Part shown: one piece after another, positions 1 to 51,408 of the stretch | Layout: each line of letters opens with the position of its first letter | Numbering within the stretch: position 1 is the stretch's first letter | Source of the DNA: Cloeon dipterum | Lineage: Eukaryota; Arthropoda; Insecta; Ephemeroptera; Baetidae | Assembly (NCBI RefSeq): GCF_949628265.1 | Contig: NC_088786.1 | Coordinates: 19,117,681 to 19,181,680, forward strand | Direction of reading: 5' to 3' | DNA length: 64,000 nucleotides | The notes under the pieces: generated by a model | What the model was told of the DNA's origin: nothing | The model's database searches: none | The model's input: only the letters and a program-made list of their open reading frames with translations | Position numbers and translations under genes: made by a program

Positions 1-6569
<6,569 letters not shown>

Positions 6570-33600: not shown

Positions 33601-36600
33601 CTCAACATGTTGCTTTTCATTTCAACCTTTTCAAACGGCATATATTTTAACATTCACACTCCCGCACCCGCACACCACCTGCGCGCAGCGTGCAAGGCTT
33701 TTTGATCAATTCTTAACGTGATCTGATTCCCTCGCGAGAAGCTAATATCGATCCGAACGTATCACGCAATCTACCTATGCATCAATATTTGCATTTTGCT
33801 TTTTTTACCGTGACACTGAGCTACGGCCCTTTTATGTTTTTGGTGCAGGAGGTCTGAACCGAGCCACCCCCAAGAGCTGAAAGGAATCTTCGCGATGACC
33901 CTAGGCACTCAGCGAAGCAGTGTTGTCCAACAGTACGGCGGACAGGTCAGGGTGCTGACCCTGAACTACGGCGAGCACCTCGACTCGACGCTCTTCCGTC
34001 TCAAGAAAGGTGAGTGATAGCCACTTTTTTCTAATCTAAACTCAAATATATTTGTTCGTAGTGCTATATTCCAATTTCTATCCACTTAGGTTGGATTTTC
34101 TTTTTCTTTTCCTCAAACACTCAAGATGTAACGATGATTTTTTAGTTTCTTTTTGTCTATCCAGAAGTACTATATCGGAAACCTATGAATCAAGAATAGA
34201 ATGGTTTTCCTTTTTTTAAATCATATTAAACAGACGGTGGTTATTCCTAGAAAATTTCCAAAAATGCAATGGACTGTTGGTTGATTGCCAGCAACCAAGT
34301 TAAAATCATTAAATCCGACTGATGGATTAGATATAAATGTATTCTAGGATGGACCCTGCAGTTCCGTTTGGGCCCGTCTCTGTTGGGCAAAGACGTAAAA
34401 ATCTTTTGCAACCACCCTGAAACACCTGAGGGTGAGATCTTTGACCGCCGCCGCTACCGAGGCCTGGCTTGGCGTCGGGACGGAGGCCCGGCCGACGACA
34501 CATCATTCTACACTGAAATCAATATTGTCCGCGCGGGCTCCTTCCATTTTTACTTCACTTGCGACGAAAACAAGTATAACTCTATTGGAAAGAACATAAA
34601 CATGTCGATTACAACTGCTCTTTTTATTGGCAGCTCGTATGATTTCGCAATGAATGACGGCTACTACACTGAGGGATATTATTCCGAGGGCTACACTGGC
34701 AAGAACAAAAGACCTGATGGGTCTGGCTTTTTCCTCGTCGAACCCGATCTGTTCTACGGCAGGGGTGACGTGCTACCCTTGGACTGCGTGCAGTGCCAGA
34801 CCGTCCTCGCCAAGTGCCTTGGCCCTTTCCACACCTGGGAGAAGAAACTGGCAGTCTCAAGGGAGAGTGGCTACAATATGATTCATTTCACCCCAATTCA
34901 GGTATGACAGATTTTCATTCAGCGAATTTGGAGGTTATTGAAATTCATTTTCAGGCCCTAGGCATTTCCAACTCGTCGTACAGTCTGAAAGACCAGCTAA
35001 GGCTGAACCCAATCTTCAGCGAACACGGGGATCACATCAGCATCGAACATATTGAGAAACTGACCCACAAAATGGCAACAGAGTGGAAGGTTTGTAAATG
35101 ACACTATAACGAAGAGCCTCATAAATTGTTAAATTCCAAAGGTTTTGAGTATTTGCGACGTTGTGCTGAACCACACGGCCAACGAAAGCGCTTGGATCAA
35201 GGACCATCCAGAATGTACATACAACATGGACAACTCGCCGCACCTGCGTCCCGCTTTCCTGTTGGACGCCATTTTGGCCCGCTTTGCGTTTGAGATCTCG
35301 CAAGGAAAGTGGCAGCACTCAGGCGTGCCTAAGCTGATCTGCATAGAAGACCACTTGCAGGCGATGCGCGGCACTCTTCTCGGCCAGCTGCTGCCGCAGG
35401 CCAAGCTGTGGGAGATGTATACGGTGGACATCGAGTCCACTCTGTCCCATTTCGCTCGAATGGCCAGGGAAAGGGGCCCTCTGAAGCAGGGCCATGGCGA
35501 GTTGACCATCCAGCAGGACCCTCAGTTCCGCCGCAACCATTCCAAAGTGGACATGGAGCAGGCGCTGAGCCTCTTCAACATTCAGAGGTTTGTTTATCTT
35601 CCTCGAATTTTTTTCCAATATTTCTGCCACGTTTTTAAGCTCTAATAAAATTTCAAAATCTTGCGAAGTCGAAATTGTCTGTAAAATCACGCAAAAATGT
35701 AGTATGTTGAAATCCAAGTATTTTTATTTTTTACAAGAATATCATTTGTTTGACAAAATATCATTTTGTATGACAGGAAGGACTGCTACGACGAAGCACA
35801 TCGCGTCCAGCGCTGCACCGACGATCTGCGCGAATACCTTGAAACATTGAACCGTCAAGTGACTGACACTCTGCAGAGTCACCTGGTTGCTGCCGTGGAC
35901 AACTGCCTGGCAGGAATTAGATACTTCCGCGTGCAGACCGACGGGCCAAGGCTTAAGGAAATCACTCCGAAGGATCCCCTGATTCCCAGGTAAGATGAAC
36001 CAATGATGCTTGAGCCGATTGAAATTCCAATTTGGCCTCTTCTCCTACACAGGTACTTCACCTACACTGGTAATACCGACACGCTGCTTGATGACGTGGA
36101 GCGCATCATGTACGCCAACGGGGGCCGCTACATCATGGCTCACAACGGCTGGGTAATGAACGCTGATCCGCTCCGCAACTTTGCCGACGCCGACTCCAAC
36201 GTCTACCTGAGGAGAGAACTGATCGCCTGGGGAGACAGCGTCAAACTGAGATACGGCGAAAAGCCGGAGGACTGCCCGTTCCTGTGGCAACACATGCGAG
36301 AGTATGTCGAGCAGACTGCAAGGACATTCCACGGAATCCGCCTCGACAACTGCCATTCCACGCCAATACCTGTCGCAGAGGTATCAAAATTAATGTTAAT
36401 TACATTTGACTTGGAAATGATTAAACCCGATTGGGTTATGTTTCAGTACCTCTTGGATGCTGCCAGGCGCATCAGACCTGACCTCTACGTCGTCGCTGAA
36501 CTGTTTACCAATTCTGATGAAAAGGACAACATTTTCATCAACCGCCTGGGCATTACATCTCTAATCAGAGGCATGTACTATTTATTATTTAATGAGAGCT

Positions 36601-39600
36601 AGGGAATTTCGACGGTAAAGACGTTTTTTAAATGGTGCTATTCTTGCTAATTATTATTGTTAAGGGCCCCTTGTATTCGAAGTATTGGACAAAATGTGTG
36701 TGTGTGTGTATATTTATAGAAAAAATTTGGCATAGATAAATCGGAAGTTTTTGATATACTGAGGTCACGGGTCGAAAAAAAGTTATTTTTAGCTGAAGTA
36801 TGAATAGCGAGAAAATAAAAATTTCACGATCGGTTGATTTTAACCATCAGAACATGCTACACTCATGACGTCAAAAATGACTTTAAGAACGTGCAATAAA
36901 TTGAACCCTGGTCCTTTAGGCTTGATAGTGTTAAAATCAAACATGTAGCTGTTTTAATTATGGCTGCCAGGCTCTGTTTGATTTGCAATATTTTTAAGTG
37001 TGAGAAAACAATGTTGCATTTTTGCACATTGCTAAATTGGCAAATCCTAATGTGTGCTCATTTGGAATCTAATAGCTAATAAGACGCACCGAAAAAAGAT
37101 TTAATTGTCTTAATTTCCTAATCTTTGCGCAGAGGCCATGTCTGCTTGGGACTCGCACGAAGAGGGACGTCTGGTTTACCGCTACGGCGGCGATCCAGTT
37201 GGTGCCTTCATTCAGCCACCTACTCGTCCTCTTGTGCCTAGCATCGCCCACGCCCTTTTCCTTGACGTCACGCACGACAATCCAAGTCCAGTGCAGACCA
37301 GAAGCGTGTACGACCTGCTACCCAGCTCAGCCTTGGTCAACATGGCTTGCTGCGGGAGCGGAAGCAACAGGGGCTACGACGAGCTTGTTCCTCATGATGT
37401 AAAATCGTTAAATGGTTGAAGATGAGTGTGGTTAATATACTAATTTTTAGATCCATGTTGTGGATGAAATCCGCCACTACACAGAATGGGCTGAGAACGT
37501 CAATTCGAACGGAAGCCAGACCGTTGGCTTGCAAAGCGGCATCATTGCGGCCAAGCGGGCGCTGAATAAACTGCACTTTGAGCTGGGAATATCCGGTTTC
37601 AACCAAGTATGAAAAATAATGATCATTCAGAGTTGGTCTCAAACTTAATTGAAAACATAGGTGTTCGTTGACCAAGTTGACTCTGATGTGGTGGCCGTGA
37701 CCAGGCACTGCCCCGCCACCCACCAGTCAGTGGTGCTTGTTGCGTGCACTGCATTTAAACAGCCAGAGCCTTTCTACAAGAGAACACACACACGGCCATT
37801 GCGGGTCGAAGGCACCGTCGACGAGGTGATTTTCGAAGCAAGCCTTTGCCACAGAGATTCAAAGTAAATTATATGAAATTGCCATAGTATTTGAAAACTA
37901 ATTCCTTCTCCGCAGATCTGGTGGCGCGTGGTTTGTGCCTCCTCCTTCCAACTTCCGCAAAGATGGACGCTTCATCAACGGCTTGAGCGATTACAAGCTG
38001 AAGCTGAGGGAACACTTCCCTCTGTCTCAGGCTGAGGCTGTCCACAAGGGTGAAAGTGGCGACCCGCAGGTCACGCAGATCGACTTCACAGAGGACTTCC
38101 AGCCTGGCTGTGTGATAGCATTTAAGTGCGTTTTAATTAAAATGCAGTCAATTTTTATTTAATATATTTTCCCCAGGGTTTCTCTGCATTACAACATGAC
38201 GCCAGCTATCGCTCACCTTGGCCGGCTTGTCGAACGGTTCAACATGCGTTCTGCCAATGACATGTCTACAGTGGATCACGATTTTGACAGAATCGTGTCC
38301 AGGCTTAACCTTGCAGATCTCAATAGAGCTCTCTTCCACTGCGAAGAGGAGGAAAGAGACGAGGGCCATGGCTTCGGAGCGTATAATATTCCAGGATTTG
38401 GATCCACGGTTTACTGCGGCCTACAAGGTACTGGAAACATTAAGATTGGTGGTTAATTTCTTATTAAATCATGTTGTAAACAGGTTTCATTTCATTGCTA
38501 AGTGAAGTTAGGCAAAAGAACGATTTGGGCCATCCTCTGTGTGGAAACTTGAGGGCTGGTAACTGGATGATAGGTAACTTTTGATGCTTTCAATTATTAA
38601 AAACCGCAAAATGAGAATCCAAGCGATGTTTGGGAATCAAGTTCGAGCTGATCTGCGCCTAAGTTTGACTCTCTGTCATATTGCAATTATTACAAGTCCA
38701 TTCGGATTTGGGAGGATTGCGAAAGCCCTCTGACTCGCACCTTTCCAGTATGCGTGAATTAATTTCACGGGACGAACGTCTAGCGTTTCAATAAATTGCA
38801 CCAATGCAAGGCAGTAACATGAGCTGGCCCTTTTCTGCAATGGACTTCCAATGAGTCTCTTTGAGGCCATGTTAATCGTTCCCCGTGTTATTAACACGTG
38901 AGTCACCCATCTCAAAAAACACAAACCGATCAAAGATAAAAAAAATTTGGGAACATCGAGACATCATGGCTCCTCTTTTTTAAGACTACATCAGTCAGAG
39001 GCTGAAGCTCGATCCAGGCACTGAAGAGCTAGGCAGGTGGTTTGAGGATAACCTTCGCCACCTGAAGGAATTGCCGCGCTACCTGGTTCCCAGCTACTTC
39101 GATGCTGTGTTGCAAGGGGTGTATCAAGCACTCCTTCAGCGCGTATGGAACTGCATGTCAACGTAATCCCCTCGAATTCACTTTCCAACCGCAAACCTTG
39201 ATTTTGTTCTTGCGCAGATTCATTCAGCTTGGCTCGCATTTCGTCAAGAGCCTCGGTCTTGGCTCCGTTCAGTGCGGTGGAATAGTGAAATCCGCACAGC
39301 TGCCGAAGCTGTCGCCAGCTTTGCCACCACCCTTGCCACCAACCAGGCTGGGACTAAACGGACAGTCTGATCAAGTGTTCCTCACGCTCTCTGCAGGTGA
39401 GAAATCCACGCTTGTCTGAGTTTTCATTGAACGTCGTTTTTTAAATTTATCTTTGAACTCTCTGAAAGTTCCTCTGTAACGAAATAACGAATCCATTGGT
39501 TTCGCCAAATACTACAACGTCGAATCGTTAGAGTTTTCTTGTTAGTCTAATTATCTTTTGTTAACCAGCATTTCCAACATTTGGGCTATTCTTTATTTCC

Positions 39601-41886
39601 TTCAATTAATTTTCTATCCTAATTAAATCTTGCAGGCTTGCCTCACTTCTCCACTGGCTACATGCGTAACTGGGGACGAGACACTTTCATTTCCCTTCGA
39701 GGTTTGTTCATTCTCACTGGACGCTACCAAGAGGCTAGGTATATTAAATCACTAAACCTCAAATTGGTTTAATCTCACGAGGATCTCGTTCAGGTACCAC
39801 ATCCTCGCCTACGCCGCTTGCCTCCGCCACGGTTTGATTCCCAATCTCTTGGATGGAGGCAAAAACGCTCGGTTCAATTGCAGAGACGCAGTTTGGTGGT
39901 GGCTCTATTCGATCCAGAGCTACGTCCAGGAAGTGCCAGACGGCTGGCGCATTTTCCAGGACCCAGTGTCCCGTTTGTTCCCGAGGGACGACTCTCCTGC
40001 TCTTGAGCCTGGCTCACATGTAAAATAATTTAATTAACTCAATCACCAGGTAGGTGCTCACCAATTTTATTGCAGGACCAACCCCTTCAAGACATCGTGC
40101 AGGAAGCACTGCGCGTGCACTTCCAAGGCCTCAAGTTCAGGGAACGCAACGCAGGAGCCAAGATCGACGCACACATGAACGACCAAGGATTCAACAACGA
40201 GATTGGCGTCGATTGCGAAACAGGCTTCGTTTACGGAGGCAACGGCCAGAATTGCGGCACTTGGATGGACAAGATGGGCTCAAGCGACAAGGCCGGCACC
40301 AAGGGCAGACCCGCAACACCTCGCGATGGCAGCGCCGTCGAGCTCGTCGGTCTGTGCAAGGCTGCTCTCAAATTCCTCAATGGCTTGTACACCATGGGCA
40401 GATATCCACATAACTCTGTAGAGCGCAGAAACAATGACGGTACTAAAAAAAATAGTAAAAAAGTAAATATATTTATTAAAATGCCAATTCTGAAAGATCA
40501 TTGGCCGTTCCACCCAAATTTGGTTTGTAGACACTGTTTATGCATTTTACTAAACACAAGGTGCATGAAGAAGAAAAGTGTCTTAAAAAAAATTGTGGAA
40601 AACCACATTTTTCAACTTCACCCTTTTGACAATCAAACAGACAAAATATTTATAGGAAATGTCAGTTGAGGCTGAAAATTGAAACTATTGCAGGAAGCTA
40701 CACAACATGGACGTTCCAGGAGTGGGAGGACAAGATTGTGCACCACTTTGAACGCAAATTCTGGATCAACTGGACGCCCATCCCTGAGAACGAGCCGCGA
40801 CCCGAACTGATCAACCGGCGCGGCATCTACAAGGACTCGCACAATGCGAGCCAAGCGTGGGCTGACTACCAGCTGCGGCCCAACTTCACGGTGGCCATGG
40901 TGGCCGCACCCGACATGTTTGACCCTCACCATGCGTGGTCGGCGCTCGGCGAGGTCGAAAAGATCCTGCTTGGCCCCCTGGGCATGAAGACCCTCGACCC
41001 CAGCGACTGGGCTTACTGCGGCGACTACAACAACTGCGACGATGGAAACGACTCAAAGACGGCGCAAGGTTTCAACTACCACCAAGGACCTGTAAGTTGA
41101 ATAATACTTTGTCTGTGTTTGAATAATTTTTTAACATAAAAGTTTTCAACAGACTAAAATCTATAAATAGCTAGCTCCTGAACGAATTATTCGTAATTTT
41201 TCGTGCAAGAAACTTATTCATTAATTTTATTTTAACTCAGGAATGGGTGTGGCCCGTGGGCTTCTTCCTGCGCGCCCGTCTCCACTTCGCCCGCATCGTG
41301 GGCGGCGAGGCTGAGTTGCGTCGCACAATGTCGGCCACCAAGGCTTACCTTTCCCGCCACTTCACCGAACTCACCACGTCGCCCTGGCGAGGATTACCTG
41401 AGTTGACCAACAAGGACGGCAGATACTGCTCGGACAGTTGTCGTATCCAGGCTTGGAGCATGGCAACTATCCTCGAGGTACGATGCCTAATATATTTACC
41501 CTTTTGCATTTTTATAATTATCTATAAATCATTTCGAATCACTCAATTTTCTCAATGCGAGTTCTCATTTAACTTCATTTTCTCATTTTAATTTGAACTC
41601 TGTGGTGATCATTAGGCTGGCGATATTTCGACGAAAAAGACGTCTGCGTGTAGCATAATGTCCAGTCTGCAATGGAATAAAGAGTGTGGGCATAAAATAT
41701 TTGATGATATTTTCCCAAACAATATAAAAGTGTATTTTAAAACTAAAAAGGGATGATTTAGATTAAAAATCTATAGGCACTGTAATAAATATTTAGAATA
41801 TATTTAAAACAAATATTGTGGCTCGATTTCAGACGCTGCACCAGATGTCTCAACTGGAGGAAGAGCTCGGATACAACCACAACTGA
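30689..41886 (+). CDS. AGL: Glycogen debranching enzyme (isoform A start)
   Basis: Coding exons: 30689-30705, 33849-34009, 34348-34901, 34955-35089, 35142-35587, 35777-35989, 36053-36380, 36447-36570, 37133-37398, 37451-37606, 37661-37863, 37916-38125, 38177-38427, 38484-38573, 38985-39162, 39218-39396, 39636-39738, 39794-40019, 40076-40439, 40694-41091, 41241-41477, 41833-41886. They sum to 4893 bases, or 1630 aa (human 1532). The cytosolic enzyme moves maltotriosyl units and then cleaves the alpha-1,6 branch glucose. The transferase half has RLDNCHSTP (Asp607) and VVAELFTN (Glu636), spaced as in the family's acid pair. The glucosidase half has [14 protein letters not shown] (Asp1345) and GLPELTN (Glu1588). 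The exon 36447-36570 ends AGAG/GCATGT, a GC-AG intron. The Kozak context at 30689 (TCACCATGG) is strong. A repeat R1 copy lies in the intron 38574-38984. Confidence 0.95.
30706..33206. other. AGL intron 1 sequence between the two first exons
   Basis: About 2.5 kb of AT-rich intron. A GC-richer stretch at about 32700-33206 leads into the alternative first exon and probably contains its promoter and untranslated leader. No other coding feature is supported; short open frames at 32810-33240 overlap in several phases. Confidence 0.6.
33207..33355 (+). CDS. AGL: Alternative first coding exon of AGL (isoform B)
   Basis: ATG at 33207 opens 149 bases ending at a strong donor (GAGCG/GTGAGT). The exon ends in the same phase as exon 1A, so it joins 33849 without a frame change and would give a 1674-aa protein whose first 49 residues replace MAEEE. 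The peptide starts hydrophobic ([12 protein letters not shown]) and then has a Gly-rich and His-rich stretch ([14 protein letters not shown]). It is preceded by GC-rich DNA, as expected of a second promoter. Whether it targets glycogen, a membrane or nothing is unknown. A third option, initiation at ATG 33896 inside the shared exon, is also open. Confidence 0.65.
38610..38940 (+). repeat. Interspersed repeat R1 inside an AGL intron
   Basis: This copy fills most of the AGL intron 38574-38984 and matches 6570-6920 in the same orientation, including GCGTGAATTAATTTCACG and the GA(A/C)GTCTAGCG box. It leaves both splice sites intact. Confidence 0.75.
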
Positions 41887-44000: not shown

Positions 44001-44540
44001 CTGTAAGCCACCGCGAGATGTCAGTTTAGCTATGAAAAAAACACGCGGCATACGCGGCCTCTGCATCGCGGAAATGATAAGAAACATTCTTTGTCAGATG
44101 ACGTGTGATGTTTCGAAGTTTTGGCTGGGTCGCTGGCGTCGCTGTCCCTTGTAGCCGAGAGAAGAATAATTTACTCATCGCGCAGGATAATTAATAATTA
44201 TCTAAATTCACCATGATTCACCATTGGTGAGTTGTGTTCTCTTGTGTTTTTGTTCATATTAATGTACTTTAAAGCATAATTTTCGATTTTCAGGGGTTGA
44301 AAAACTTTCAACGCAAACGATTTAAATTATTGCTCACTTTTCGTTTAAGTATTTTTGTCTTAGACTTTATATTATACAAATTGAGCTCTAACCTGATGGG
44401 CTGATTTTAGTTTTTCATTTGTAAGGGAGCAATTTATTACGGATCTTAGATAATAATATATAATAAATTCCTATAATCTCTCCCTATATGTTGAATTTTT
44501 TCTTTTGATATTTTGCAAACATAATAGTAGATCAGTGCTA
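44001..44540 (+). repeat. Segmental duplication block B, copy 1
   Basis: Matches 55887-56495. Shared landmarks are GTAAGCCACCGC(G/A)AGATGTCA, TTTAAATTATTGCTCAC and GATGGGCTGATTTT. The sequence TTTCAGGGGTTGA at about 44290 is the uninterrupted form of the site that carries a 142-bp element in copy 2. The block lies upstream of the caspase-NACHT gene and may contain its promoter. Confidence 0.75.
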
Positions 44541-45241: not shown

Positions 45242-48200
45242 ATGCGTAAGCAAAAAATCATGAAAACCAGGTTTGGATATTTCCAAGACAATAGTGGGAC
45301 AGCAAGAGAAATTGATTGGTATGAATGATAGGTTTACAGCAATATTTGCACTGTTTAAAATATGTATTATCCTCCTTTGTAGGGTATTCGTCCTAGTGAT
45401 CCATTACGACTTCTCATCAAGAGAAGGATTTGAATTAAAGAAAAGAATTGGAGATGCGGAAGATGTTGAAAGGCTGCGAAGCACATTTAAAGAAAAGAGA
45501 AACTGCTCGTTTCACGAAATTTTATCTCCAACAAAAGATGAATTATTTGAGCTCATTTCAAACGAGGAAAAGCTCCTGCAGCTTTTCAGAGGCAGCAGCT
45601 TAAACTGTGTGCCAGAGATATTCATTCTTTTTATTTTGTCGCACGGAGGTACCGATGGAATCATATACACAGACCATTTTCAACCAGAGTCTAAGGAAAT
45701 GGTTTATTTTTACCGACACGATGTTTTCCAGAAACTTGCTTCTCTGAAAAAGTTCAAAACCTGCCTCAAATTCATCAACTTTGGGGTAATTGATTTAACA
45801 AATTTTTATGTTTTATCCAAAAGAGACTATTAATTATTTATATTTCAGCCCTGTCGCGGACTTGAATATGATCCAATCTTGTCGCCATCAGAAAACAAGC
45901 TCAAGACAAACTCTAAAGTATCCAAATTATACTTCGTGCCAAACATTTATGAAAATCTGGTTGTTGCTTACTCCACTCTAGAAAGTATTTAATTTTAGAT
46001 CCTCGACTTTTTTAAAGTGTATTGAATCATTCCATGAATTGCAGCAAAGATCGCAAAACGGGAGGATGCCGCTAACTCGGTAACAAAAATGGGAACTTAT
46101 TACGTCCAATCATTTTGCGACGTGCTTGATGAGCTTCAACATGACACAAATTTCGCGGACGTTTTGACCATGGTGCAGCACGAAGTGCACAGAACGACAA
46201 CAACTAACCCATTCAATAAAAGTGGTCAAACTCCAGAATTCACCTTATTCCCACACAAGAAGATCATCATTCGTTGCGTTGAAAAGTAAATATATATTAT
46301 GAAACTGTTATATACGTCATGATGATCTGTATAAGTTTGTCTTAGAATTATGGTCTTTTGTTCCTGGTTACCCAATTTCGTACCTTTCCACTAAATTTTC
46401 TTTCAATCAGGACAAAAAGAGCTTAAGGATAATGAATCGGTCTATTTTTTTTTCTCAGAGCGATTTCTCAACCAGGCATGTCTTGCGGTCATGATGGAAA
46501 AGCCGATACTTCGCGTTTGAAAAATACTCCAATTCAACGTGATGCAAGGGAGCATTTTTTCAAATGGCAGTCAGACACAGGAGAAACTTTGCGAAGTCGA
46601 AGAGCAGCAATTTTTCGAGATCCAGAAGTTTCGAAATACCAAGCAATGAAGATGGACAAGGCACTGACGAGAAACCTTCTTTTTGAAACTTCCTTACACA
46701 ATATCACAACGCGAGAGCTGAACAATTATTTTACTAATTGTAATTTTTATTAAATTTCTCTTTTCAAATCAATAACTTAATCTCGTGTTCCAGCTAAATT
46801 GCTCGATTATGAGAATGTGGGCTGCTGTTTGGCCGCGTTTTTTACTAAGACCCAAGTTGACGAAAAAAGTGGCGAAATCAGCATCACTACAACAGACGAC
46901 GTGACTGTTCCGGCTGGAGACATCATTAGCACCTGCGTTGGGCCCGAAAACAAGAACATGACTGGCAAGCCATACCTCTTTTTCTTCATCAACCAAGTTT
47001 CCCCAGCCGCTGATAACATGATGCCTCATGAGGTTGCATATAAATATACTGCAATTATTCAAGTATTTTTTATTTTGTCAATGTTTCAGCCACAATTGCC
47101 GAATTTGAATTACGCGATTCGAGCTACCCAATACAGCGGCTATTTAGCTTTTTTCGCACTGAGCGAAGGTGAATTTATTTAAGTTTAATTTAGTATTCTT
47201 ATTGACTATGTAATCATTATTTTCATATAGATATATTTGAACGACTGCTGGAAATTTTGGATGGAAAACTTGTGAAAAACGGTAAAAGCATCCAAGAACT
47301 ACTGTCCGAGCTCCTTCATCTAAATCCAGAGGATGTCTCCAACTTCAGTGCAAGTAATAACAGGCTGATGCTTATTGCGTCAACATTGCAGTACTCACTC
47401 GATTTCCCAGACTTACCCAGTCGTTTCGTTCAACCAACGTTAAAAATTTCCAATCAAAATTACAAATTTGAAACATTTTTGCGGCTAGTTGAATCCTTAG
47501 AAAATATGATGTTGGTTGTTTCATCGGACGCTGGTATGGGGAAAACAACAATGGTGCTCGAACTTTCGAATATCTTGAGAAAGAAAATGAAAAGAAAAAT
47601 TGTTCTTTTGCAACTAGTTCGGTTTTACGAATTTTTCCCCAACGGCGATGATGAGTGCGACTGCACGCTGTACTCGCTCCTTGCAAAGGCATTAAGCGTC
47701 ACCGAGGAGAGAATCATAGACCTGAACAATAGTGAAGGATTCTTTGTCTTTTTAGATGGGTTTGACGAAATAGCGACCCATTTTAAAGGTTTGACATCAA
47801 ACATTTTACGAGAGCTGGTTAAGAGAAAAATCCCATTTCTTATCACGACAAGACCAGAAGAAGAAAATGCGCTTAAAAGTATTTTGAAAGAAGCCAAAAT
47901 TATTGGGCTTGAAAATTTTGATCGAAATCAACAGCTAGAGCTTATGAAAATAGTCACGCAAGAGAGAGAGGAGGAGTGTGAAAATAAATTAAAAAGCTTT
48001 CGGGCCACTGCGATGGGAGATGTCTTGGGAAATCCCTTGCATCTCACTATTGTCAGTCAGGGCAAAAATGCTAAAAATATGTGGGAAGTTTATGATGAAT
48101 TTTTGCACACGAAAGTCGCTCATGGATTAGAATTTAAAGATAATATCCGAATCGACAATGCAAAAGGGCAAATGCAAATCAAGGACAGAATTAAATTCCT

Positions 48201-51200
48201 TCAAAAAGTAACGTATGATCAAGTGAAGAACGATCTAAAAACAAAAGAATTCAGCGAGGATGAATGCTGTAAAATAAATAACACGGGAGTTGCATGGATA
48301 AGTGGAAGTCAAATTATCTACACGCACAAAACTGTATCAGACTTTCTTGTGTGCCGAAAATTCGTTTTCGAGGTTCAGAACAAGAAAGCTGAAAAGGATG
48401 CAACAATCATGAGTCACGACAGATTGTCAGGAAGCAGAAGCTTCCTCGATCTTTACCTATCCCAAGACGAGAAAAATTTCCGATTAACTTTAATGGAAAT
48501 CGTAAAGCAACACGTACCACCAAGGTCGGTTTTGTTTATACTAAGCGAAGGCCACAAAAATATGTTCAACGCTTTTCAGGGGCTAATTAGAGAAGCAGTT
48601 AACTCACAAATATCTGATATAGATCTCTTGAATAAAACTTTGAATGCGACAATTTCAAATAATATTCAAAACGCAGAGTTTGCTAAATTTTTACTGGATT
48701 TTGAGTTTCCAATAAAAGATGAGGTGCAAAAACATGAACAAACTGCAATGGATTTGGTAATGACAAGATTCAAGAATGGTGAGGATGCACTCTTTCTTGC
48801 CCAAAAGTTGTACGATAAGAATCAATCGCTCGTCAAAACCGAGCCTAACGACGAAACAACATTTCAGCAAGCAGCTGAAAAAAAGGATTCAAAAATGTGT
48901 GGTTGGTTGCTCGAAATTAAAAATGATGAAGTTGATTTCATCAAAATGGGCAAGCATCCATTTGACTATGTTGCTCAAAACGCGCAATTCGGACTCGAAG
49001 TTGGGAAATACCTTATATCGATAGGTGTTAAGCCTGAAGTCCAAAGTTTAAAAAAAGCCGTGCGGTTGAATAATTTCAAACTGGCAGAGCTTCTGTTCTT
49101 TAATTTGGCAGACGAAAATAAAAGGCTCGGGGGAAACAATATTCTTCACTTTGCCATCCGTATAGACAGCATTGAATTTGTCATACACGTGAGCCAAAAA
49201 TATGGAAAAGAATTGGTCTCGCAACTAACAGATCATGGAGTGACTGCCCTGCAATTGGCAGCGAGCTACTCTGGTTTGAGCATGTGCAAGTTGATTGAAA
49301 AGTTTGATATTGAATTTCACGCCAGCGAAGACAATGGGCATGTTTTTTGTCATGACCGGTGTCTTCCTGGTTTAATTAGAAATCAAGCATTTCTAGCTGG
49401 TGCACCCTCTCAGATATCAAACGGTATCGCATACTTTCTAAGTAATTTTAAGAAAATACCCGGTACTCTGTGCCCATCAATGTTCAGCGTTCTTTCGCCT
49501 TCGGGTGAAAATGCTTTTCATGCAGCTGCTCGAAATGAGAACAGAATTGACGAGCTTGTAGCACTTGCTCAGCATTTTAAAACAAACAAAGTGGCAATTG
49601 ATCTGAAAAATAAAATGGGTAACACCCCATTTCAAATTGCAATCCTAAATCAACGAACTGACCTGGCTCTGTACTTGATGAAAAACGGGGCGGATGTGAA
49701 AAACAGTTGCGGAAAATTCAACGCATTTCAATTTTTTATAATAAATGATAATCTGGACGGGGCCAAGGAGGTTTACAAAAGGCATAGTGAACTTCTGGGC
49801 CAACTCACTGACAAGGGCGAATCTTGTTTGCACCTAGCAGTGATGCATTCCTCCATAAAAATGTTCAATTGGCTTCTGCAAATCGGAGCCAATTTGCATG
49901 CTGTGACTAAAAATGGAGATAATGTTTTGCACCTGGTCCATCATCAAGTTCATGAGGTATATGTCTCTCTCTCCAAAGATGGAAAAAATTTTGAAATGTT
50001 CAACAAAATTAAAAGCTGGGTAAAATTTTTAGTTTCTAAAGGGGCTGACATCAGTCTAAAAAATAATCAGGGAAAAATTCCACTTCAAATTGCTCTTGAA
50101 GATAAAAGTACGCTGTCGCTAGCAAAAGAATTGATGGAATATTCAGCTCCTCCCGAAATGAAGTTGGACGGGCATAACCTGTTGCACATTTTCATTAAAT
50201 ATGAAAATTTGGATGACATTAAATACATTCATCATTTGCATCGTGAATTGATAAAAGAAAGATCAGACAAAGGAGACTATGCACTGCATCTGGCTGCAAG
50301 ATGCTGCAAAGATCGTGAAACCTTTGAATGGCTCGTTGAAAATGGGGCAGATGTCCACGCGCTTAATTGGAATGGGGACAATGTCTTACATGTCTTAGCT
50401 TCAAAATATGAACTAAATTTTGAAATTGTTCAGTATTTCTTTGATCTAGGTGTTAACATCAATTCAAAAAATATCCACATGTTGACACCACTGCAGGTAG
50501 CTGCTGAGCACTTGAGTTTTGGGAGTATTCGTGGATTCGTTGAGCTCGGAGCTGAACTTTTTAGAAACGGTGCGAAATACAACGTGTTGCACGTGCTAAT
50601 TAAAAATTTTAAACTCGACCTAGCAGAGTTCATCCACTCAAAAGACAATAAAGTCGTGACGGAGCTCACCGGCGACGGGTATACAGCCCTGCACTTAGCA
50701 GTTCAGTTTTCAAAACTTGAGATGTGCAAGTGGCTGATTGAGATTAACGGTGTCGATGTACATGCTGTGACAGAACAGGGTGACAACATTCTCCACATCG
50801 CGGCACGTCGACATGATAATGAAGGGAAACAAATTTTAGAATACATACTCGCAACTTTTGAGGTGAACATTAACCAGAAAAATAAATCAGACGAGACTCC
50901 ACTTTTCATTGCTTTGGTCCCCGCGGATAACATTTATGCGGCTAAAAAATTGATTGAATCAGGGGCTGATTGTAGAGTTAAATGCGGTGGAGTTTCGCTG
51001 TTGCATGCGAGTCTGGAGAACAATGGAGAGTATGCCTTGGATGCCATTGAACTGTTAAAAGACAAGGGTGTACTCGAGGAACTCACAGAAGAGGGAGAAA
51101 ATATATTGCACCTCTCTGCCAGATATGCGAATATCAGTACTTGCATCTACGTGCAAAATTTTGTCGCGGACCTGCATGCGACCACAAATGACGGCAGCAC

Positions 51201-51408
51201 CGTTTTGCACATGGCTGCCTTGAACAAAGTATATGGACGGGATATCATAGAACATTTTATGTCGCTGGGTTTGGACTTGGACTTGGAAAAAGTAAGCAAT
51301 GATGGAAAATTAGCATTAGATGTTGCTAATTCAATACAGAACTACAATGCAAGTAGCATTCTATTAAAGTATTACAATATGTTATTTCAACGTGAAGATG
51401 CTTATTAA
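45242..51408 (+). CDS. Caspase - pseudo-caspase - NACHT - ankyrin-repeat protein (NLR-like)
   Basis: Exons: 45242-45318, 45383-45785, 45849-45984, 46045-46285, 46459-46739, 46794-47032, 47090-47168, 47231-51408. They total 5634 bases, or 1877 aa. An in-frame ATG at 45260 is an alternative start; a 5' exon may precede. Residues about 26-290 form a caspase domain with SHGG (His113) and PCRG (Cys162), 49 residues apart as in active caspases, then AYSTLE and a p10-like end (HEVHR, FTLFPHKKIII). Residues about 335-500 repeat the fold without the Cys. A NACHT-type NTPase follows, with Walker A GMGKTT (587-592) and Walker B FFVFLDGFDE (about 656-665). From about 1120 to the end there are ankyrin-type repeats (TALHLAV, NVLHL, GADVHA). 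Inferred role: an intracellular sensor whose repeats detect a signal, NACHT oligomerises, and the caspase acts. No CARD or death domain is seen. The 4.2-kb last exon is uninterrupted. Confidence 0.88.

Follow-up and report, generated by a model that had tools for sequence, protein, structure and literature searches.

A mayfly gene family that joins caspase, pseudocaspase, NACHT and ankyrin domains in one chain: candidate NLR-like receptors with a built-in effector

To our knowledge, insects are usually described as being without NLRs. Here we describe a gene from a 64,000-nucleotide stretch of the genome of the mayfly Cloeon dipterum (the window; C1:19117681-19181680 of a 190-Mb, ten-contig assembly) that encodes, in a single chain and in this order, a caspase domain with its catalytic dyad retained, a second and dead caspase domain, an NLR-type NACHT module and an array of ankyrin repeats. 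A preliminary description, made from the window alone, had taken it for one unusual gene with one caspase domain; it is instead a member of a large mayfly family, and the second caspase domain had been overlooked. We consider it probable that the product is a STAND-type (NLR-like) intracellular receptor with a built-in effector.

The eight-exon model of the gene was rebuilt to exactly 1877 amino acids (aa), with GT-AG borders at all seven introns. RefSeq LOC135948392 (1884 aa; P0001 in our set), whose protein is named as uncharacterised, is the same gene, and the two proteins are letter-identical but for seven additional residues at the RefSeq N-terminus. These residues, MIHHWLK, map to an upstream exon (Table 1), so that the earlier count of seven introns is right for the shorter model and becomes eight in a RefSeq-like one. 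The caspase, NACHT and ankyrin calls of the preliminary description all stand above the curated Pfam cut-offs in the RefSeq protein: Peptidase_C14 at 50.1 bits (cut-off 21.4), NACHT at 35.6 bits (cut-off 26.7) and Ank_2 at 188.6 bits (cut-off 27.3). When eight other family members were compared with the window by tblastn, all eight matched the caspase and NACHT exons collinearly and seven matched the region of exons 5-7, the exception being P0056.

The first domain has a caspase fold, and the catalytic residues His113 (in LSHGG) and Cys162 (in GPCRG) are where they had been placed. Of 51 family rows, 48 retain the His-Cys dyad with its SHG and CRG motifs. Both Arg of what we take to be the S1 pocket are present in the window protein (R47 and R211, the equivalence coming from an alignment with caspase-3), and the Gln of QACRG, presumably serving the same pocket, is Gly. 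Judged by its sequence, the domain looks like a working cell-death protease.

The middle domain has a caspase fold without the catalytic dyad. Its identity as a pseudocaspase was suggested by motif reading and settled by structure and by hmmsearch against the other caspase genes of the genome; a single-sequence search of the PDB with this region gave one weak, unrelated match only. Pfam finds no CARD, PYD, DED or Death domain in P0001 at an E value of 0.001. A caspase-like gene elsewhere in the genome (L025, C5:14224000-14228500) keeps LSHG, has VQVLRS where QACRG is expected, and is possibly another dead caspase.

The NACHT module and the ankyrins share a single 1400-aa open frame in the window. 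The module carries Walker A and Walker B motifs and a helical His motif (Table 1), the last presumably like that of NLRP proteins. In a Foldseek search with a model of the paralogue P0009, the top matches were NLRC4, NOD2 and NLRP3, ahead of the caspases, among which CED-3 was the best. Behind the NACHT module of the window protein Pfam finds ankyrin families only, and no leucine-rich repeats (LRRs). Across four regions compared in 15 hand-chosen family pairs, the post-NACHT region, which is mainly ankyrins, had the lowest identity in 14; in the remaining pair, P0028/P0029, the caspase was lower. As anatomy, the earlier proposal that one chain unites an NLR-like sensor with a protease is thus well supported by the Pfam domains, the structural matches to NLRs, the kept dyad and the variable ankyrins, and the immune role that went with it is a suggestion, as it was there.

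Three protein searches brought together 62 proteins, all from C. dipterum or Neocloeon triangulifer, both Baetidae; candidates were limited by length and, in two of the searches, only the 7992 sharing most words were scored. The first search, with the caspase-to-NACHT part, returned only the gene itself, and the relatives came by way of NACHT words and alignment words. According to precomputed Pfam labels, C14, NACHT and ankyrin occur together in 5 of the 8 proteins from the NACHT-word search and in 29 of the 56 from the alignment-word search. Family hidden Markov models (HMMs) place caspase, middle domain and NACHT in that order in every member in which all three are found. No relative from outside the mayflies was among the matches scored, in searches that were not a survey of NACHT in other insects and in a database from which other mayflies are perhaps missing. 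A tree was built from the 40 of the 62 proteins with the three domains near complete (P0002 was omitted, and P0003 was represented by its first NACHT). It requires three or more changes of species label and contains large Cloeon-only groups, and the window gene sits on a long branch in an unsure position. Since the labels change at least three times and the Cloeon-only groups are large, the family appears to be older than the divergence of Cloeon and Neocloeon, and duplication appears to have gone on after it. Two NACHT modules are found in one chain in P0003 (Neocloeon LOC132193991), and P0012, P0013, P0014, P0016 and P0017 have an N-terminal extension of about 230 aa ahead of the caspase, in which Pfam finds nothing in the two that were scanned (P0013 and P0016).

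Genome-wide, Pfam NACHT has at least 101 matches at an E value of 0.001 or better, all over the cut-off; the count is a lower bound, 106 of 119 candidates having been scored. Among 14 prokaryote controls, 11 gave a signal and 3 passed the cut-off. The matches fall on contigs C4 (46), C2 (34), C1 (8), C3 (8) and C5 (5), and are clustered, with up to 18 within 0.45 Mb. The DNA was inspected at 37 of the 101 loci, including the window gene (L003): the first 20 by coordinate and one more, and 16 hand-chosen across C2-C5. A six-frame HMM search found caspase, pseudocaspase and NACHT in this order on one strand at 35 of the 37 (34 of 36 without the window gene), with 1.8-3.9 kb from the first caspase exon to NACHT. 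The exceptions are L002, with no family NACHT, and L029, where the 2.7 kb fetched contain no caspase. Because the other family members match the window collinearly and the order recurs at 34 of 36 other loci, the association of caspase and NACHT exons in the window gene is not a matter of chance. The same architecture is probably present at most of the 101 loci.

Domains of the BIR (IAP) type are also numerous, with 102 matches genome-wide, counted by domain and exon, of which 43 form a dense cluster at C3:7772011-7877466 (7.77-7.88 Mb). This may be an expansion tied to the caspases of the family. In one member, P0056 (LOC135942178; locus L033, C4:8635944-8639210), both dyad residues are lost (Y/F), and the NACHT and ankyrins are followed by two BIR stretches and, at the end, a RING-like match below the cut-off. 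The NACHT and the two BIR matches share an open frame of 1288 aa, in the same phase (C4:8.636-8.639 Mb), and the join is therefore not a modelling error. P0056 looks like a receptor turned inhibitor.

How might such a receptor work? The ankyrin array would sense a ligand or a guarded host protein and would keep the NACHT module shut. ATP-dependent opening would let NACHT oligomerise, and the oligomer would bring N-terminal caspases together; alternatively, each caspase may pair in cis with its own pseudocaspase, as caspase-8 does with FLIP(L). Proteolysis would be switched on without a CARD or PYD adaptor, and the output might be local proteolysis or cell death, with IAPs restraining it. The comparison with FLIP(L) draws on PMC7586951, which, in its cited part, gives the heterodimer of FLIP(L) and caspase-8 as energetically favoured and active. 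More tentatively, it is possible that mayflies hold a counterpart of the NLR repertoire, made up of about a hundred mostly clustered receptors, each a single-chain inflammasome with sensor, switch, caspase and FLIP-like partner, and with co-expanded IAPs as a check. The figure of about a hundred is extrapolated from the 35 of 37 loci inspected out of 101.

Several observations weigh against a receptor with a built-in protease. Scanned exon by exon over the whole genome, Pfam Peptidase_C14 gave 36 matches, including several fragments of stand-alone caspases. Because this profile misses most caspases of the family, a family HMM was used, and the majority of the family's caspase exons were detected by it alone. 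In most family rows Gly takes the place of the QACRG Gln, and in 21 rows Thr stands for one S1-pocket Arg, which leaves the classical preference for Asp uncertain. The structure models are of paralogues, P0009 being 30% identical to the window protein, and they may not fix the relative placement of the caspase and pseudocaspase folds. An hhalign comparison of the family middle-domain profile with the family caspase profile gave no match (probability 0.5% or less), and the gene that the middle domain matches best in sequence, L025, is itself without the Cys motif. A gasdermin search, run without a positive control, found no match.

Is the molecule an immune receptor at all? Or, is it a developmental or homeostatic switch for cell death, as in the loss of tissue at moulting or the remodelling of gill or gut? 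Caspases and IAPs serve insect apoptosis, and no result here is specific to infection. Against such a switch stand the 101 NACHT matches, many of them clustered, the Cloeon-only groups of the tree and the ankyrins, least conserved in 14 of 15 pairs; together these look like birth-and-death evolution of sensors rather than a conserved developmental switch, which we consider unlikely. Quite improbable, in our view, is that the pseudocaspase is a lock, which caps the active caspase in cis until opening of NACHT releases it, with some members pure decoys. The pseudocaspase does follow the caspase wherever the family HMMs find both, and P0056, without the dyad, keeps the rest and has its BIR domains in the NACHT frame. 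However, FLIP(L) is able both to activate caspase-8 and to restrain it (cited part of PMC7586951), and anatomy therefore does not decide between activator and lock. That an adjoining caspase gene and NACHT-ankyrin gene were wrongly joined is very improbable, even with some family models that look merged or odd (P0002, P0062), because this order is found again and again in raw DNA (35 of 37 loci) and also in Neocloeon proteins, the RefSeq and earlier models agree, and the middle domain, split across exons 5-8, ends in the same exon as NACHT and ankyrins; the preliminary view of one gene rather than two is very likely right.

By analogy, the nearest kin of the receptor reading appear to be animal NLRs, the caspase-8/FLIP pair, apoptosomes and bacterial caspase-STAND systems. 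In the Apaf-1/caspase-9 and CED-4/CED-3 apoptosomes, a STAND NTPase platform activates a separate caspase recruited by CARD-CARD contact; the theme of STAND NTPase and caspase is common to both, whereas in the mayfly protein the caspase is fused. Animal NLRs (NLRC4, NOD2, NLRP3) likewise have a NACHT module with a repeat array behind it, but the repeats are LRRs rather than ankyrins, and the N-terminus is a CARD, PYD or other death fold rather than a whole caspase and a pseudocaspase. Without these two defining features, LRRs and a death-fold adaptor domain, the mayfly protein is only NLR-like and not an NLR. Caspase-8 and c-FLIP(L) are a separate pair, while in the mayfly protein a single chain holds both parts together with NACHT and ankyrins, and DEDs are absent. 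Some bacterial STAND systems, a number of them of the NACHT clade, have peptidase effectors including caspases; these are prokaryotic, and neither an ankyrin array nor a tandem pseudocaspase is described in the cited part of PMC8195603. The hybrid caspases of amphioxus (LRR-caspase and TNFR-caspase) join sensor straight to caspase and bypass the adaptor, as in the mayfly, with no NACHT-caspase fusion in the cited part of PMC2575513. Coral NACHT/NB-ARC genes have undergone lineage-specific expansion and tandem duplication, and some have ankyrins, which again recalls the mayfly; the N-terminal domains named in the cited part of PMC4083563 are CARD, DED and Death, with no caspase-NACHT.

Among arthropods, an NLR is known from shrimp (PMC12370184, in part), NACHT is given as absent from Drosophila (PMC2575513, in part), and a survey of metazoan inflammasomes, in its cited part, describes arthropod NLRs as having no effector domain at the N-terminus and for that reason does not count Arthropoda among the phyla with possible inflammasomes (PMC11508797). 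We found no description of a caspase-NACHT fusion in insects among the papers listed from the open literature, subscription papers, preprints and supplements lying outside the search, and the main text of the Cloeon genome paper (PMC7250882) contains neither 'caspase' nor 'ankyrin'. A mayfly family with a built-in caspase would change the picture of insects and arthropods as being without effector-bearing NLRs, would show an adaptor-free route from sensor to caspase activation, and would give a natural single-chain model of pseudocaspase control over a caspase. If it exists, the hundred-receptor repertoire would be an NLR-type insect immune system that evolved without death-fold adaptors. The hypothesis is testable, since C. 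dipterum has been established as a laboratory model (PMC6446309, in part).

Table 1. Features of the mayfly gene, with positions in the window.
Feature	Position	Strand	Evidence
Whole gene, 8 exons, 1877 aa (RefSeq LOC135948392, 1884 aa)	45242..51408	+	Model rebuild and RefSeq match
Upstream first coding exon of RefSeq model (MIHHW...), spliced to 45235	44213..44226	+	P0001 N-terminus located in window
Caspase domain, residues ~24-284 (exons 1-4)	45311..46280	+	
Catalytic His113	45642..45644	+	His in 52/53 family rows with a letter there
Catalytic Cys162	45852..45854	+	Cys in 50/53 family rows with a letter there
Pseudocaspase domain, residues ~317-546 (exons 5-8)	46550..47412	+	
Lys398 at His position	46847-46849	+	Within pseudocaspase
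Gln447 at Cys position	46994-46996	+	Within pseudocaspase
NACHT NTPase module, residues ~564-900	47464..48474	+	NACHT 35.6 bits
Walker A GMGKTT	47533-47550	+	Lys in 50/50 family rows with a letter
Walker B FFVFLDGFDE	47740-47769	+	DGFDE motif conserved in family
Helical His motif YTHKTVSDFL	48319-48348	+	Conserved in family
C-terminal region with ankyrin repeats, same exon as NACHT	48475..51405	+	Ank_2 188.6 bits

Elsewhere in the window, a GA dinucleotide array of 79 copies with 98% matches lies at 4999-5156. Upstream of the gene, open frames at 34323-41097 (+) resemble, by eye, a glycogen debranching enzyme, an ordinary neighbour.
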